From positions 1 through 45,785 of the forward strand of contig JARXAF010000193.1 of assembly GCA_029865985.1 (NCBI GenBank): 45,785 nt of DNA, written 5' to 3'. The position numbers and the translations under genes are program-made. This DNA comes from Verrucomicrobiota bacterium (lineage in GTDB: Bacteria; Verrucomicrobiota; Verrucomicrobiia; Limisphaerales; UBA9464). The stretch's first letter is position 1; each line of letters starts with the position of its first letter. The notes under the pieces are model-generated. The model was given only the letters and a program-made list of their open reading frames with translations. It ran no database searches and was not told the origin of the DNA. Below are positions 34,819 to 45,785 of the stretch, in pieces.

Positions 34819-36519
34819 TCAGAGCGGTCGGATGGGCACCTGCCATTCCAACTCAAAGCCGTCGTCCCGAAGCCGTTTCTGGAATTCTGCGGTGAGGTCC
34901 GATTTGGCGTAGACCTCGGCTGGAGTCCGTTTTCGGTCCAAGCAAAACGCGGCCAAAGCCCCGGCGGCTTCTCCAATGTTCCACTCCACCGGATGCAACC
35001 GATAACACCCGTTGGCGATGTGGGTGACTCCCAAACACTTGCCCGCAGCGATGAGATTTTCCACCCGCCGCGGCAACAGGGCACCCAGTGGAATTTGAAA
35101 CGGCAAGCTGGAGACATCGACATAGTTTCGCGCCCGGGTCGATGGGTGCAGGTCGATACGATAAGCCCCGACCCCCACTGAATCCGGGAATGGCGTGGCC
35201 CGCACGGTTTCGGCGGTGGCCCCCGTCTCCATCTTGCGCACCTCGGTGGACACATGGCGTTCGGTGACCGTGAATTTCGCGCGGATACGGCGGCTTTCGC
35301 GAATGTAGGGAGCGAGTGCGAATCCGTCGGAAGTGCCCAAAATACCGGCACTCGGCTTGAGCCCTGGCCAACCCGTGCCGCCATCGGGACGTGGCGCTTC
35401 GGTCTGAAGCCAATAAATGAGGCTCCGACTCAAGGCCTTGGCCTCGGCCTCGCGCTGACGGCGCTGCTCCAAACTCACGCCAGGCCCGACCAACGGAGCC
35501 AGCCAATGATCATTCTGAGGCCAATTGACCAGGCAGACCGAAGGGTGACTTCGGGGATCCTGGAATCGGGACGCATCCCGGATGCGCCGGTAGGTCCACA
35601 AATTAGGAAAGGCTCCCTCACCCACAGGATCAAAGGGGAGGCTGCGGGACTTGAGCGTGACCGGATGAGCATGTTCCCAAGCGAACAATCGCCCCGGCCA
35701 AGGCGGAGTCATCGTCGGCACATAATCTCGCCACCGAGCGTAATCATCGGGTCGCTGGAGAACGTGGTTTTGCCCGGCATGGTGTTCCAAAGCGAAGCAC
35801 CAAGTGATGGCTTGTTGGTCGAGCGGGTCGGCCAATTCTGGTGCCGAGGGTTCCCCGGTTTCTGATCGCGATTCGGCTCCGGTCACATGTTCGACACCGG
35901 CCAGGGGCAGCAGGTCGCCCAGTTCCGTGGCCTCCAGGACCCAGGGAGCCGACACCGTCCGCCGCCGCCCGCCGGTCACCTCTTCAAAAACCACCGACTC
36001 GATGCGGTCTCCCCGGACGGATGCAGCGACGGGTCGATGACCAAGCAAGATCGTCAGTCGCCCGTTGGCGATATGCGGAGCCAACAATGATTCGAGAACA
36101 GCCAGGGCCAACCTCGGTTCATGACACAAACGGGAAACCCATCCCCCGCCCGGATTGACCCGCGCCGCGGACCGGGAGGCGGCATTCAGTGGAAAGTCCC
36201 TGAGAAACCGTTGTCGGACTTCATCACGAAACTGACGGTAACTCCGGGTGCAACCGGCCTCCTCGATCCAAGGATGCTCATCGGGAGGTACGGCTTGCGA
36301 AGTGAACTGCCCCCCGATCCACAAGGTCTCCTCCGTCAACACGACCCGCTGTCCGGCGCGGCAAGCCGCCAATGCGGCCGCAACACCGCCAGTCCCGCCA
36401 CCCACAATCAGGACCGAAGCCGACAGGGAGGTCGTGCGGCGCTCGGTGGCACCGATTCCCGGAACCGAGAAACACCCACCGACCAGTCCCACGGCAGCCA
36501 AGAACGATCGACGATCCAT
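34819..36519 (-). CDS. Exported FAD-dependent oxidoreductase (FAD_oxidored family)
   Basis: 566 residues from MDRRSFLAAVGLVGGCFSVP, a Tat-like signal (RRSFL) ending near the PGIGATERR segment; an upstream ATG at 36558 is less likely. FAD site SVLIVGGGTGGVAAALAACR, then EETLWIGGQFTSQAVPPDEH. The middle has VLEATELGDLLPLAGVEHVT and the C-terminal PLGALLPRRVENLIAAGKCL then GVTHIANGCYRLHPVEWNIG, which is the usual second FAD-contact block (aGrc...h...gt.r..p...giGeA). Large exported flavoproteins of this family are common in Verrucomicrobia and Planctomycetes, often near carbohydrate genes; substrate unknown. Confidence 0.9.
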   Translation of the reverse strand: MDRRSFLAAVGLVGGCFSVPGIGATERRTTSLSASVLIVGGGTGGVAAALAACRAGQRVVLTEETLWIGGQFTSQAVPPDEHPWIEEAGCTRSYRQFRDEVRQRFLRDFPLNAASRSAARVNPGGGWVSRLCHEPRLALAVLESLLAPHIANGRLTILLGHRPVAASVRGDRIESVVFEEVTGGRRRTVSAPWVLEATELGDLLPLAGVEHVTGAESRSETGEPSAPELADPLDQQAITWCFALEHHAGQNHVLQRPDDYARWRDYVPTMTPPWPGRLFAWEHAHPVTLKSRSLPFDPVGEGAFPNLWTYRRIRDASRFQDPRSHPSVCLVNWPQNDHWLAPLVGPGVSLEQRRQREAEAKALSRSLIYWLQTEAPRPDGGTGWPGLKPSAGILGTSDGFALAPYIRESRRIRAKFTVTERHVSTEVRKMETGATAETVRATPFPDSVGVGAYRIDLHPSTRARNYVDVSSLPFQIPLGALLPRRVENLIAAGKCLGVTHIANGCYRLHPVEWNIGEAAGALAAFCLDRKRTPAEVYAKSDLTAEFQKRLRDDGFELEWQVPIRPL

Positions 36520-36617
36520 GCTGGAAAACTGACACCTGTCTTCGGCATTCGCGAGCACTCTTCCTGCTGTCTTACGAACTCAAAAACTCAGATTTTCGGA
36601 AAATATCGGTTCGGTAA

Positions 36618-36651
36618 GGGTGTTACAAATTTCGGGGGGGGGTGTTACAAA
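36618..36651 (+). promoter_or_regulatory. Direct repeat GGGTGTTACAAA, 22-bp period, upstream of the sigma-kinase operon
   Basis: GGGTGTTACAAA occurs at 36618-36629 and 36640-36651, so the copies are on the same DNA face two turns apart. A run of nine G (36634-36642) fills much of the spacer and runs into copy 2. The block is in an AT-rich stretch about 80-115 bp before the sigma start. Likely a regulator or alternative sigma binding site; not a repeat I can name. Confidence 0.5.
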
Positions 36652-36732
36652 ATATATTTCAAAAACATCAACTTTTTCCCATCCGCTTCCAGCGGGTTGC
36701 AGTGTATCCCAACTGAAGGACCCACCAATCTT

Positions 36733-37341
36733 GTGATCGAAGCACCCACCACGAATGCCCAATGGCTCACCGCAGCCAAGGATTTAACGGATGACACGAC
36801 TTGGAAACAGCTCTCCGAGACGTATCGGTTACCGATCCTAAAACACTGTGCCAACAGCGGTCTGACGCCCGCCGAGGCCGAAGAAGTGGTTCAGGAAACC
36901 TTCGCACAACTGGCCATACAAATCGGGAAAACCACAGAACCCTGGGAAGCCCCATCATTGCGAGCCTGGCTGACGGATGTGGTCAATCGCCACATCATCG
37001 ACCACCACAAGAACAACACGGCCCACCGCCTCCCGGAACAGCTCCAAGCGATGGTGCAAGAGTGGGTGGAGTCTCAGGATGGAGGCGAATCATCGCACGC
37101 GGAGCGAGCCGAAGCCGAATCACACCTCTGGGCACTGTCACTCCATCGAGCCCGCAATCAGTTTTCCGCGCAGCATTGGCAAATCTTTGACGCCTATGCG
37201 ATTCAAGGACTGACCTCCAAAAAAGTGTCTGAGCTTTTCAACACCAGCCACTTCAACGTCCGCCTCATCGCCCATCGAATGAAAAAGATGGTCCGACAGA
37301 CCTACAATCAGCTACTGAAGGAAGAGATTCATCTTCCCTAG
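36733..37341 (+). CDS. ECF-type sigma-70 family factor (partner of the downstream kinase)
   Basis: 202 residues from a GTG at 36733, preceded by GAAGGA 12 nt upstream. Region 2 is at about 34-90 (LPILKHCANSGLTPAEAEEV, VQETFAQLAIQ, LRAWLTDVVNRHIIDHHKNN) and region 4 at about 145-195 (AQHWQIFDAYAIQGLTSKKV, SELFNTSHFNVRLIAHRMKK). No N-terminal region 1 and no fused C-terminal domain. The frame is open much further upstream but that part is a shadow of the FAD gene. Followed after 2 bp by the kinase, an arrangement known from Planctomycetes/Verrucomicrobia in which the kinase is thought to control the sigma factor. Confidence 0.85.
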   Translation: MIEAPTTNAQWLTAAKDLTDDTTWKQLSETYRLPILKHCANSGLTPAEAEEVVQETFAQLAIQIGKTTEPWEAPSLRAWLTDVVNRHIIDHHKNNTAHRLPEQLQAMVQEWVESQDGGESSHAERAEAESHLWALSLHRARNQFSAQHWQIFDAYAIQGLTSKKVSELFNTSHFNVRLIAHRMKKMVRQTYNQLLKEEIHLP

Positions 37342-37343
37342 CT

Positions 37344-39197
37344 ATGACCCGGGACGTCCCGCCGCTGCCCCCTGATTACGAGCTGATCCGATCCCTATCC
37401 CAGCGGGAGAAATCCTGGGTGATGCAGGTGCGCGACCCTCAGTATCGCCCCTGCTGCCTGAAGCTGACTTATTCGACGAGCCCGGCTCACCTACAAGAAC
37501 AGATCGCCCTGCGGAACGATCTGATGCACCTGTCACAGAGCACCCCCGGCCTCCTGCCCATGCTCGACTGGGGTGCCAACACCGATGCGGGAATCCTTTG
37601 GGAAAAATTCCCACTGGCTGACGATGTGACCGGGTCCTCGCCCGAGGAGTCCGCAACCTACCTCCCTATGACCCTGGGGGAATGGTGCAAAGGACAAAAC
37701 AACCCCAACACACTGACTGTGATCCGTTGGGGAATCCGTCTGGCCTCTGCCTTGGAGGCGCTGCATGGAGAAGGCCTGCTCCACCTCGACATCAAGCCGG
37801 CCAACATCTTGTTCATCGATGGGCTTCCAGTCCTGGGTGATTACGGATCGGTGAGTCGGTCCGTGCAGCCTCACCGGCATCTCGGTTCTGATGGCTACTA
37901 CCCGCCCGACAAGAGTGGATCAGTGGGGCTCGATGTCTTCGCCTTGGGGCGGACTCTCTACGAAGTCTGGAGCGGTCTGGATCGATACCATTTCCCCAAC
38001 TTGCCGGTACGTGTTCTCAATGATCCGCAGTGGCAATCCCATGGCTGGTTGCTCAACGAGGCTTTGATTCGGGCGACCGATATCCGCATCACCCGACGCC
38101 TTTCTGACGCTGGCCAGTTTGGCAAAGTTCTCTCTCAGGCTGAAGAAGGCCAAACCCGACTCTCCCGAAGGAAGGCCGCTGCCGCCCTCGTCACTCTGGG
38201 CGCCGTTGCCACCGGATTCTTCATCGCTCGAAATCTCCCGTCGCACCGTGCAGTTTGGCGTCATCACTCGAAGGCTCGGTTCGGCTACGAACAATGGAAT
38301 GCCAGCGAACTGACCTGCGATTGGAAGACTCGGATGCTTTACTGCGTCACAGCCGATGCTCGAGGGTCCTTCTTCCAGCGGTATGACCTGGAACGCCTTC
38401 AGTGGAAGTACACCGCGTTCCCCAAGGGCCCTCATCGCATCCCCTTCTGCACCTTCGCTCCATGGTCCGAGGATTTGGTTTTCTGCGAGTCGGTGTCGGG
38501 TCAGGTCTTCCGCATGCCCATGGATGGATCCCCGCCAGAACCCATCCCCACCCAGGTTCTGAACCAGTTGGATTTCGCCGGTTCCGGCTACGTCAATCCG
38601 ATCACGCGGCGACTCGGGATGTTTGCCGGATACGGCAATTTCAAGGTCAACAACCGCCGCTACGAATACGATCCCAAGACCGGCATCTGGGAGCGAGTCA
38701 CCGAGAATTCAACCCAACGGCCGTGGCCGCGTGGGGGATCCATGATGATTCCAGGAAAGGATCGCAAAACCTGGTTCGTCTTCGGTGGTCCCGGAAATCA
38801 AGAAGGTCCGGAGGGACGGCGTGAACCGGGGCTGAAATCCTTCGGTGGCACCTACTACCCGCTCGATGATTTCTGGCAACTCGATGTGGCGACCCAACAG
38901 TGGCGACCCTTGCTGGGTGTTCAGGAGTGGACTCCGAAAGGCCTGCGGAAGGCCGTCTACCACCCGGGTCTCGATGGGGTCCTCTTCCTGACGGGCAACG
39001 AACCCACCCATCCAGCTGAAGCCCGATTCCATTTGTGGACCTCCTCTGGAGATCGCCTGCCCCAGGCCCTGCCCAATCGCGGTGATACCCCGCCCCCGCT
39101 CTTTCGCTGCTGGACACTGCTGGTCGAGCCCGATTCGAAGGCCCTCTGGGTTTTTGCCGACGAAGGAATCTTCACCGTCACCATCGAAGCGGCCTGA
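37344..39197 (+). CDS. Membrane Ser/Thr protein kinase-like protein with propeller-type sensor region
   Basis: 617 residues. Kinase domain about 10-265: the ATP lysine is probably Lys40 (PCCLKLTYS), catalytic loop HLDIKPANILF (147-157; Asp149, Asn154), metal loop DYG (166-168) in place of DFG, and GSDGYYPPDK in the activation-segment end. The N-lobe Gly-rich loop is not recognisable. One membrane helix about 279-297 (AAALVTLGAVATGFFIA). The outer ~310 residues have Kelch/propeller-like strands (NNRRYEYDPKTGIWERVTEN, WFVFGGPGNQEGPEGRREP, FWQLDVATQQWRPLLGVQEW). A cytoplasmic kinase with an extracytoplasmic sensor is inferred. Translation probably couples to the sigma gene. Confidence 0.85.
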   Translation: MTRDVPPLPPDYELIRSLSQREKSWVMQVRDPQYRPCCLKLTYSTSPAHLQEQIALRNDLMHLSQSTPGLLPMLDWGANTDAGILWEKFPLADDVTGSSPEESATYLPMTLGEWCKGQNNPNTLTVIRWGIRLASALEALHGEGLLHLDIKPANILFIDGLPVLGDYGSVSRSVQPHRHLGSDGYYPPDKSGSVGLDVFALGRTLYEVWSGLDRYHFPNLPVRVLNDPQWQSHGWLLNEALIRATDIRITRRLSDAGQFGKVLSQAEEGQTRLSRRKAAAALVTLGAVATGFFIARNLPSHRAVWRHHSKARFGYEQWNASELTCDWKTRMLYCVTADARGSFFQRYDLERLQWKYTAFPKGPHRIPFCTFAPWSEDLVFCESVSGQVFRMPMDGSPPEPIPTQVLNQLDFAGSGYVNPITRRLGMFAGYGNFKVNNRRYEYDPKTGIWERVTENSTQRPWPRGGSMMIPGKDRKTWFVFGGPGNQEGPEGRREPGLKSFGGTYYPLDDFWQLDVATQQWRPLLGVQEWTPKGLRKAVYHPGLDGVLFLTGNEPTHPAEARFHLWTSSGDRLPQALPNRGDTPPPLFRCWTLLVEPDSKALWVFADEGIFTVTIEAA

Positions 39198-43719: not shown

Positions 43720-44322
43720 TCACAGGAAAGCATCCGTCTGCAACCGGCCCAAGACCCGCTTCATTTCGGCACGAGCCCTGAAGGCCCGAACCTTGACCAG
43801 CGTTTGCGACCAACCGGTGATCGCGGAGATTTCCTTCACCGAGCGGTCTTCCAACTCCAGCAGGGTCAGAACCATCCGGTGGGCGGGACTGAGTTGCTCA
43901 AAGATACGCCGCACCAGAGATCTGGCCGCCTCAGAACGATGATCGTTCCGTTCGGGACTAACGGCATGTCGATCGAGCCACTCGGTTTCCTCAGCCGACA
44001 GGTCCGTCAGGGTCTCTTCGCGGTGTCGACGCTGACTGCGGAGCGCATCCAAACAAGCACGCGTTGCCAAACGCATCAACCAATGCTCGAAGGGTGCCTC
44101 TCCCCTCCAGGAATCCAATCGGGAGAAGGCCTTCACCAACACATCCTGAACCAAATCGGCGACATCGTCTTCCCGACGCAAATAACGACGAACCAAGGCG
44201 AAGAGTCGGGTCTGATGGCGCCCAACCAGCACACCGAACTGCTCGGTGTCGCCCGCACGCACCGCGCGCACAATTTCCGCATCCGAGACCGATTCTAGGG
44301 CCACCGGGGCCTCGGACTCCAC
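43720..44322 (-). CDS. ECF sigma factor (RpoE-like)
   Basis: 200 residues from a GTG at 44322 (GGAGG 13 nt upstream); GTG 44367 or TTG 44448 would extend it. Region 2: DAEIVRAVRAGDTEQFGVLV, RREDDVADLVQDVLVKAFSR (the DAEDLVQD block), WLMRLATRACLDALRSQRRH. Region 4: LSPAHRMVLTLLELEDRSVK, EISAITGWSQTLVKVRAFRA. A typical RpoE-group ECF factor for envelope stress. Followed by the anti-sigma-like and Spy-like genes after 194 bp, which makes a regulatory unit. Confidence 0.93.
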   Translation of the reverse strand: MESEAPVALESVSDAEIVRAVRAGDTEQFGVLVGRHQTRLFALVRRYLRREDDVADLVQDVLVKAFSRLDSWRGEAPFEHWLMRLATRACLDALRSQRRHREETLTDLSAEETEWLDRHAVSPERNDHRSEAARSLVRRIFEQLSPAHRMVLTLLELEDRSVKEISAITGWSQTLVKVRAFRARAEMKRVLGRLQTDAFL

Positions 44323-44670
44323 AGACCAAGTCTGGCCTCCGAAGGTTGGATGGATGGCAATATTCACGCGAAGCGCTTCGTCCTGAGGGTTTCTGAGCTT
44401 GTTTCTGCTCGAACCACGCTGGCTGAAATCAACACGACCCGTCTGCAAGGATTATGCCAATCGAGGAGTACGAAAAAACCTCAGAAATCGGTCCGTATCC
44501 GCTTTGAGGGACAGGCTCATCATCCCCCCGATATCCGCACCCTTGGGCGCTATTCCCCAACACCGATCTACCTGGGCCCATTCGCCCAAGGACTGGAAGC
44601 CTCATGGATCGATGATCCACTTGGGATCGGAGGATTGTCGGCCAGCGGTCCCACCGCCTACGGTGACGCC
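44323..44670. other. Divergent intergenic region (ECF sigma / SDR) with palindrome
   Basis: About 350 bp upstream of both genes, so it should hold both promoters. It contains the perfect 12-bp palindrome CGAAGCGCTTCG (44369-44380) and a CCTCA...TGAGG inverted repeat (44479-44509). The frame open here on the plus strand is only an extension of the SDR frame. No clear -35/-10 pair identified. Confidence 0.4.
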
Positions 44671-45444
44671 ATGCAGTTGACCAACCGATGGGTATTGATC
44701 ACCGGCGCTTCGAGCGGATTCGGAGCCGCTGCCGCCGAGGCCTTTGCCCGCGCCGGCTGTCGTCTGGCATTGGGGGCCCGCCGCCTGGACCGCTTGGCGC
44801 AGGTGACCGAAATTTGCCGCAAAACCGGGGCCAGGGCGGAGTTCCATGAACTCGATGTTTCCTCCACCGCTTCGGTGAACGCCTTCTGCCAGTGGTTGCA
44901 AACGCTCACGCCCCGGGTGGATGTGCTCATCAACAATGCCGGCGGGGCTCACGGCCTGGATACAGTCGCAGCTGGCAAGGACGAGGATTGGGAGGCCATG
45001 GTGCAGTCCAATTTTTTGGGCTTGGCCCGGGTCACCCGAGCGGTGCTGCCCCTGATCCCGCACCATCAGGGGGCCATTATCCTCAACATCGGTTCCATCG
45101 CCGCTCACCAAGCCTACGAGGGCGGATCCATCTACTGTGGGGTCAAGGCCGCTGAGCGCAGCATCACGCAGGCGCTGCGTCTGGAGCTGAACGGGACGGG
45201 CATTCGCGTGGGCTCTCTCGATCCGGGCATGGCCCTGACAGAATTCTCCGACGTTCGCTTCCGCGGAGATGCGGCACGAGCCGCGCAAGTGTACCGGGGA
45301 GTGGAACCGCTCGTAGCCCAGGACATCGCCGAAACGCTCGTTTGGATGGCCTCACGACCTCCCCACGTGAACATCGACGAAATCATCATCAAGCCCACCG
45401 ATCAGGCCGCCATCCACAAGGTCCACCGACGCGCCACGGTCTGA
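44671..45444 (+). CDS. Short-chain dehydrogenase/reductase (YdfG-like)
   Basis: 257 residues from the ATG at 44671. Cofactor motif VLITGASSGFGAAAAEAFAR, LALGARRLDRLAQVTEICRK (Arg after the second strand suggests NADP), VDVLINNAGGAHGLDTVAAG, Ser in ILNIGSIAAHQAYEGGS, YxxxK as YCGVK, and RVGSLDPGMALTEFSDVRFR. The pattern is that of YdfG/serine-3-dehydrogenase-like SDRs acting on hydroxy acids. Real substrate unknown. Confidence 0.92.
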   Translation: MQLTNRWVLITGASSGFGAAAAEAFARAGCRLALGARRLDRLAQVTEICRKTGARAEFHELDVSSTASVNAFCQWLQTLTPRVDVLINNAGGAHGLDTVAAGKDEDWEAMVQSNFLGLARVTRAVLPLIPHHQGAIILNIGSIAAHQAYEGGSIYCGVKAAERSITQALRLELNGTGIRVGSLDPGMALTEFSDVRFRGDAARAAQVYRGVEPLVAQDIAETLVWMASRPPHVNIDEIIIKPTDQAAIHKVHRRATV

Positions 45445-45491
45445 GCCTAGCGCAGAACCAGGAACTCACCCTGAACGATCCAGCAGGGTCT

Positions 45492-45785
45492 CAGCCGGAA
45501 CGATTCAGTTGGGGGGAAAGCGATGGCGTCGCGGATTCTTTCGCAAGACAAGGCGAGAGCGAGGCGCGGGCCGATGGAAGGCCCATGGTTGAGACCCGGA
45601 TCGAGCGAGCAACGAAGCTCTTGCGGAAGAAGACGCAGCCAGCCCGACCGATCCCATCGCATCGTTCCGGCTGGCCGGAACGATTCAGTTGGGAGGAAAG
45701 GGATGGCGTCGCGGATTCTTTCGCAAGACAAGGCGAGAGCGAGGCGCGGGCCGATTGAAGGCCAATGGTTGAGACCCGGATCGAG
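45492..45785. repeat. Tandem ~180-bp repeat with 13-bp terminal inverted repeats (cut by window end)
   Basis: CAGCCGGAACGAT (45492-45504) is the exact reverse complement of ATCGTTCCGGCTG (45661-45673). The unit restarts at 45674 with period 180: 45494-45605 and 45674-45785 match at 108 of 112 positions. At the junction ATCGTTCCGG, CTGG, CCGGAACGAT form a hairpin (45661-45684). One hairpin inside the unit (ATGG/CCAT, 45574-45586) becomes ATTG/CAAT in copy 2. Because 180 is a multiple of 3, frames stay open on both strands, but no start or protein-like character supports a gene. Confidence 0.85.

Follow-up and report, generated by a model that had tools for sequence, protein, structure and literature searches.

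The window analysed here, a stretch of 45,785 bp, is one entire contig (C98, G000:C98) of a 3.6-Mb draft genome, and its end at 45785 lies inside a repeat. The question raised by this locus is what kind of DNA the repeat is, and whether its folded interior has a role of its own. Bacterial MITEs are customarily described as gene-less leftovers that are recognised through their ends. The element studied here is MITE-like by the features tested, and a conserved interior fold sets it apart. The reading that we prefer, with a probability of roughly 0.7, is that of a MITE-like non-autonomous element which is moved in trans and whose folded interior is under selection.

The repeat at the contig end

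The repeat occupies the final 294 bases of the window, with one copy complete and a second one partial. The earlier note had described them as two near-identical copies with a spacing of 180, and this is borne out by 96% identity over 112 nt and a start-to-start distance of 180. The features of the region are as follows.

44350..45444, + strand: upstream neighbour ORF, short-chain dehydrogenase (start codon unsettled)
45491..45493, no strand: left target duplication TCA, 3 bp, within C-TCA-G; its partner TCA follows copy 2 on contig C76
45494..45671, + strand: element copy 1, full length, 178-bp type; starts GCCGGAACGATT..., ends ...CATCGTTCCGGC
45494..45516, + strand: terminal stem, 5' arm; an inverted repeat that is imperfect past 13 bp (inner border approximate)
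45551..45567, + strand: conserved purine-rich inner-loop core, 5' side; consensus GAGGCGAGAGCGAGGCGC
45568..45601, + strand: apical hairpin region, about 13 nt longer in the 178-bp type; contains 45576/45584
45602..45618, + strand: conserved inner-loop core, 3' side; consensus AACGAGCGAACAACGAAGC
45649..45671, + strand: terminal stem, 3' arm, likewise with an approximate inner border
45672..45673, no strand: 2-bp inter-copy junction TG, differing from the outer TCA
45674..45785, + strand: first 112 bp of element copy 2, truncated at the contig end; contig C76 (L002) has the remainder

The unit occurs as a 165-bp or a 178-bp type, and its ends are GCCGG..CCGGC in the window copy. It had been proposed that a perfect 13-bp inverted repeat (45492-45504 / 45661-45673) frames the unit. 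The repeat is there, and the borders of the element proper were corrected to 45494-45671 (GCCGG...CCGGC); the CA ahead of 45494 is part of the target duplication TCA and the TG after 45671 is the inter-copy junction. Contig C76, in reversed orientation, shares an exact overlap of 141 bases with C98, supplies the rest of copy 2 and exits through CCGGC-TCA-GGGCC. This exact overlap indicates that the two contigs most likely join in a two-copy array and not in a long one. The idea that the array runs on past the window end found no support, as 45785 is the contig end and C76 completes copy 2 and then leaves it; relatives read at this locus carry one copy or zero.

A coding function was also considered, as one frame stays open through the window dimer and GGGAGGAAAGGGATGG has the look of a ribosome site with a start. 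It was rejected because other copies have TAG at codon 3 after GGAGG-ATG (several copies) or lengths that change the frame.

Copy number, insertion target and empty sites

Further copies, which the earlier note had suggested looking for, were found genome-wide. The own genome gave 35 BLAST matches to the unit, pieces counted (40 of 65 candidates scored), and 11 of the 18 other same-genus genomes contained matches, with none in the remaining 7. When a profile made from nine copies was run over the extracted loci, 118 of 148 rows spanned both ends, of which 17 were weak reverse-strand matches to the same palindromes.

Target-site duplications, another suggested check, were likewise found. Identical 3-bp flanks were present at 73 of 160 extracted copies, some of them non-independent (TAA 23, TCA 16, TTA 16, TGA 12, others 6). 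The fixed A of the target is partly a selection effect, because the flank filter permitted only T-N-A, T-N-G or N-N-A (end shift of at most 4). Among 70 unique empty sites the triplet was preceded by C in 53 and followed by G in 56, neither of which was imposed by the filter. These unselected outer bases indicate that the insertion target is C-TNA-G, with TNA duplicated.

Filled and empty states can be compared between relatives. At the leuC locus G004 is empty (GGCTCTAAGGCAAGG), G017 has one copy (CTCTAA-element-TAAGGC) and G010 has two. For the window locus, the two flanks were joined and searched against the same-genus genomes. In 9 of 18 relatives the match to the joined flanks ran through almost completely in one piece and lacked the element; G001, G009 and G016 were called element-free from match coordinates and G002, G003, G004, G006, G013 and G015 from aligned letters. 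In G018 both flanks lie on one contig, with 97% identity over the flanks and a single 165-bp copy between them, G017 has one 178-bp copy, and the own genome has two of 178 bp. These relatives support the joining of C98 and C76 at this locus. The match in G008 crosses the flank junction and reaches query base 459 only, different DNA separates the flanks in G010, and a gap of about 280 bases was seen in G014. The left flank was matched alone in G007 and G012, and G005 and G011 gave no match to the window flanks. Copy number, terminal inverted repeats, 3-bp duplications and empty sites together support the earlier suggestion of a mobile MITE-like element.

It was also observed that the type of the element switches at one fixed orthologous site (L105, L012 and the window), which is occupied, depending on the relative, by a single copy of 165 bp or of 178 bp, or by two copies of 178 bp. 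Two short derivatives, L035 (G000:C129:24046) and L036 (G000:C106:10999), resemble internal deletions; one is the terminal stem alone (30 bp, TCA on both sides) and the other is without the middle.

Since the ends of the element are GCC...GGC, insertion recreates C-TNA-G on both sides, which is a new target. Several tandem junctions are TNA-like (TTA, TAA, TAG, TCG), and those of the window and of G010 are TG. As a side observation, three dimers from three species (L030:2968-3297, window 45494-45785 and L042:1-329) have a common tail of the upstream copy, CCCATCGCATCG (CCCATCGCATCGTTCCGGC), which differs from that of most copies; their junction is TG or TCG, unlike the outer duplications.

Insertion at stop codons

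All four TNA triplets are either a stop codon (TAA or TGA) on one strand or the complement of one. At the window locus the target TCA is the TGA stop of a convergent ORF on C76 which ends at L002:1500 and codes for a protein with an HrpB_C helicase domain. The simple script used as gene caller makes the site classes approximate: about 22 of the 70 unique clean sites were stop codons, 30 were intergenic and 18 were inside a called ORF, against 10, 50 and 210, respectively, for the other CTNAG sites of the same loci. A previous count on the same sites had given 23, 31 and 16 for these classes. The enrichment of stop codons is modest (stop to intergenic 22:30 vs 10:50, Fisher P = 0.003). A CTNAG target is a simple route to insertion without gene breakage, as TNA covers TAA and TGA on either strand.

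Fold and covariation

The copies are imperfect palindromes across almost their full length, and the terminal inverted repeat, perfect over 13 bp in the window copy, is about 55 bp long and imperfect in several others. Over its whole length the element is predicted to form a rod, the purine-rich inner loops of which are conserved. In G035, which belongs to another family of the order, the ends are GCCGTATCCATG...CATGGCTACGGC and are paired except at one position; the inner stem TTCTTTCGCAAGA/TCTTGCGGAAGAA is replaced there by TTTTCGGGCAAGA/TCTTGCCCGAAAA and the loops are unchanged. Distant copies have an entirely different terminal stem, for example GGCGGCGGTAAGAAATTAAGGTGGCAAG and its complement in L157.

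The pairing was measured in two alignments. In A1, a sequence-only alignment of 29 hand-picked copies (21 of the genus, 8 of G035), 96.9% of the cells were paired, compared with 27.9-43.3% when the partners were slid. Double changes were seen at 15 of 48 pairs, mainly along the genus/G035 split, and represent few independent events because most of them track that one two-group split. A3 comprises 68 covariance-model-fitted matches from 67 loci, one of which is irregular (L237:1169-1333), and leans towards the model to which it was fitted; in it compensatory double changes occur at 43 of 48 pairs, the covariation is 0.498 vs at most 0.090 when slid, and double changes fill 545 cells vs 153 when shuffled and at most 100 when slid. 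Folded singly, 17 of 19 copies from other genera took the same rod shape on visual inspection, and the folds of L152 and L162 were less regular. On both strands the fold of the window copy is more stable than that of shuffles (z of -3.7 and -3.5), and the distant copy L157 exceeds its shuffles by far (z of -13.5 and -10.7).

The pairing of the terminal arms could by itself be attributed to the need for matching ends. Towards its centre, some 45-80 nt in from the ends, the element has conserved loops and stems that covary in many genera. Retention of the fold despite replacement of most paired letters suggests a function for the fold itself. The earlier note had proposed that the unit is maintained as a structured nucleic acid, citing a paired change in an ATGG/CCAT stem. 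Maintenance is supported, more strongly than the earlier note could show, by the compensatory changes of the full-length rod, and it does not extend to that small stem. The geometry of the pair, 45576 with 45584, is correct and the change is real, but unpaired states are frequent among genus copies. By a crude motif scan, the 178 type, with 45 distinct copies in the genus, has GC 10, TC 9, CC 7, TA 5, AC 3, GU 3, CT 2, GA 1 and AA 1, with 4 unscored, and the 45 copies of the 165 type have TC, which is unpaired, in 26, GC 14, TT 2, CC 1 and AC 1, with 1 unscored. A further GAGC/GCTC hairpin, placed near 45608-45621, is absent from the consensus, where that GCTC pairs with the other arm.

The strand was addressed through lone stem mismatches, counted in a strand-blind self-alignment. 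In A3 there were 39 G·U vs 11 A·C mismatches (31 vs 7 by element); in a second set of genus copies and nine G035 copies, which share ancestry, there were 120 vs 8 (79 vs 3 by element). This excess of G·U over A·C makes the + strand of the window the likelier folded strand, as RNA or single-stranded DNA alike.

Distribution

Of 293 genomes sampled from one Verrucomicrobiota order, 49 contained the element according to the covariance model made from A1, own genome included, and so did 25 of the 118 genera of this sample. The same search gave 0 matches in 386 further genomes drawn from the phylum, among them at least one member of the same order (G064). The filters of both searches were strict and are able to lose weak matches. 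Records with the core pattern are titled mostly Verrucomicrobia, some Planctomycetota or Akkermansia, and one core pattern had 0 exact matches in viral contigs. With Rfam 15 the element exceeded no gathering threshold in window 44000-45785 and six loci, and the sole pass in those regions was a tRNA adjoining the element in L149. No description of the element was found in the literature, as judged on titles and abstract openings among the matches listed, with subscription journals mostly outside the scope.

Source of the transposase

A transposase sharing the termini, which the earlier note had proposed to look for, did not turn up: none with the element's ends was found in 44 loci of element-bearing genomes checked for termini (30 of the 87 rows of one family search, 57 rows being without locus, and 14 of an earlier one). 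The search covered three families, PF01609 (12 and 18 genomes), PF13340 (12) and PF13359 (25), the last without a match in 25 element-bearing genomes, and draft assemblies tend to lose multi-copy insertion sequences. An end-pattern scan for an autonomous partner was made in eight genus genomes and in G189, G141, G035 and G260. By eye, no inward-facing ends at insertion-sequence distance were seen among the rows listed, which are hairpin copies and short derivatives; rows of G006, G018 and G189 fall outside those listed.

A truncated 5' end followed by a gene, at G010:C133, G017:C105, G001:C192 and G004:C55, was considered as a candidate autonomous partner. It was rejected because the gene is radical-SAM-like on reading its sequence and the four species share the truncated copy at orthologous positions.

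IS5-family elements of G233, G153 and G211, which we take to be of the IS1031 type, sit between CTNA and TNAG and so share the CTNAG target and the TNA duplication with the element. Those of G233 and G153 exceed the NF033580 cut-off, and the gene of G211 is split into two ORFs. They carry a transposase gene and ends of GAGCC..., GAGAC... or GAGCG..., whereas the element has neither and begins with GCCGGAAC.... In addition, G260 has a second hairpin family of 193-205 bp, with nearly the element's ends (e.g. GCCGGAACAATGCAGTTG), the same TNA target and an unrelated interior of GCAGAT (GCAGATAAACGCAGAT) repeats, which is unrecognised by the covariance model. In seven copies with both ends the TNA flanks match in five and not in L276 and L285. 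Copies of this second hairpin family of G260 are located as follows.

L292:1013-1205
L283:2413-2605
L281:2863-3067
L276:71-263

The shared-ends family of G260 and the CTNAG/TNA target of the IS5-family elements support a trans-acting IS5-type enzyme.

Competing explanations

The element could be an ordinary MITE, that is a decayed insertion sequence in which the palindrome is an extended terminal inverted repeat and the interior is functionless. The terminal repeats, the 3-bp duplications, the lack of a coding frame (TAG at codon 3 in several copies) and the shared-ends second family of G260 agree with such an origin. Against it stand the conserved loops and covarying stems of the interior in many genera and a wobble that is tolerated mainly on one strand, and we regard it as improbable. 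Both the strand asymmetry and a conserved core with changing stems would also be expected of a single-stranded DNA hairpin that is recognised by a recombinase through its shape, as attC and IS200/IS605 ends, which are single-stranded hairpins, are recognised. However, the element has a fixed 3-bp duplication at a palindromic target, and this is the usual sign of a double-strand DDE reaction, which leaves the shape-recognised hairpin with very little probability.

The stop codons raise yet another explanation, in which the RNA lying on the stop codon ends, stabilises or cuts the transcript of the neighbouring gene. The 22 stop codons among 70 clean sites and the stable hairpin are in its favour, as are the precedents of ERIC and Correia in the available part of one report (PMC10969869). 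The orientation of the copies does not agree with it. Of the copies on stop codons, 8 lie in sense and 15 in antisense orientation. For the 113 copies without an overlapping called ORF, the 5' neighbour gene is on the same strand in 54 and on the opposite strand in 52, and the 3' neighbour gene is opposite in 71 and on the same strand in 36, so that orientation is non-neutral on the 3' side. There is no sense bias and instead an antisense lean, which speaks against a function in the neighbour's mRNA, and we consider such a function quite unlikely.

Under the preferred reading of a MITE-like element with a selected fold, the ends would be cut and joined by an enzyme acting in trans, most likely an IS5-family DDE transposase. 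Insertion occurs into CTNAG with duplication of TNA, as read from filled and empty sites. A copy can thus occupy the stop of a gene exactly, the stop being retained on both sides, because every TNA triplet is a stop on one strand or the other. The regenerated C-TNA-G at both ends may favour tandem pile-up. The interior keeps one rod-like fold while the stem letters swap in pairs across the order, unlike in an ordinary MITE. The folded strand, as RNA or single-stranded DNA, could be serving the element's own spread, for example as a protein-binding site; such a role is favoured over one for the adjacent host gene because copies face either way, with an antisense lean.

A more far-reaching proposal, which we put forward tentatively and think rather unlikely, is that the element represents a separate kind of mobile, structured nucleic acid. 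It would be a small selfish RNA or single-stranded-DNA gene with a conserved purine-loop core that binds an order-specific protein. By swapping its terminal stems and retaining this core, it would borrow a passing transposase of the IS5 type; the element proper would then be the core, and the ends would be interchangeable tickets. What gives the preferred reading its wider interest is that the middle is conserved as a fold, with stems replaced pairwise across many genera, while the ends change. This opens to testing the question of whether a small mobile element of bacteria can contain an RNA or DNA structure that is under selection.

Comparison with known systems

Several characters of a MITE were found, namely a length of 165-178 bp, no coding capacity, terminal inverted repeats, fixed 3-bp duplications and empty sites. 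Insertion at integron attC leaves no target duplication, whereas the element has one of 3 bp. ERIC (IRU, RU-1) is palindromic, and we know of no transposase for it. It resembles the element in being short, with terminal inverted repeats and many copies. In the available parts of the respective reports, ERIC is 127 bp long (PMC2759123) and its terminal inverted repeats and many copies over Enterobacteriaceae and Vibrionaceae are described (PMC2229807, PMC10969869). ERIC has a TA motif at its ends and enterobacterial hosts, whereas the element has a TNA duplication in CTNAG and order-wide stem replacement; TNA was found in place of an ERIC-type TA duplication, and the element is set apart from ERIC by description.

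YPAL (RU-2) of Yersinia, as far as the available part of its report goes, is about 168 bp long, not A+T-rich and without TA ends (PMC2229807), and it is similar to the element in these respects. According to the same part of that report, YPAL duplications are 3 to 26 bp and its inverted repeats internal (PMC2229807), whereas those of the element are 3 bp and terminal. REP and REPIN, with the RAYT transposase, are palindromic and dispersed like the element, and GTAG repeats are present in the verrucomicrobium O. terrae according to the available part of one report (PMC3733652). Unlike REP and REPIN, the element is without a GTAG end tag and has a target duplication and long terminal repeats; by eye, its ends are GCCGG..CCGGC or GGCGG..CCGCC, with neither the GTAG nor the CGTC tag of REP/RAYT.

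Elsewhere in the window, the ORF at 37344-39197 has a weak protein-kinase match and Kelch-like repeats, and a sigma-factor-like ORF (36121-37341) adjoins it.
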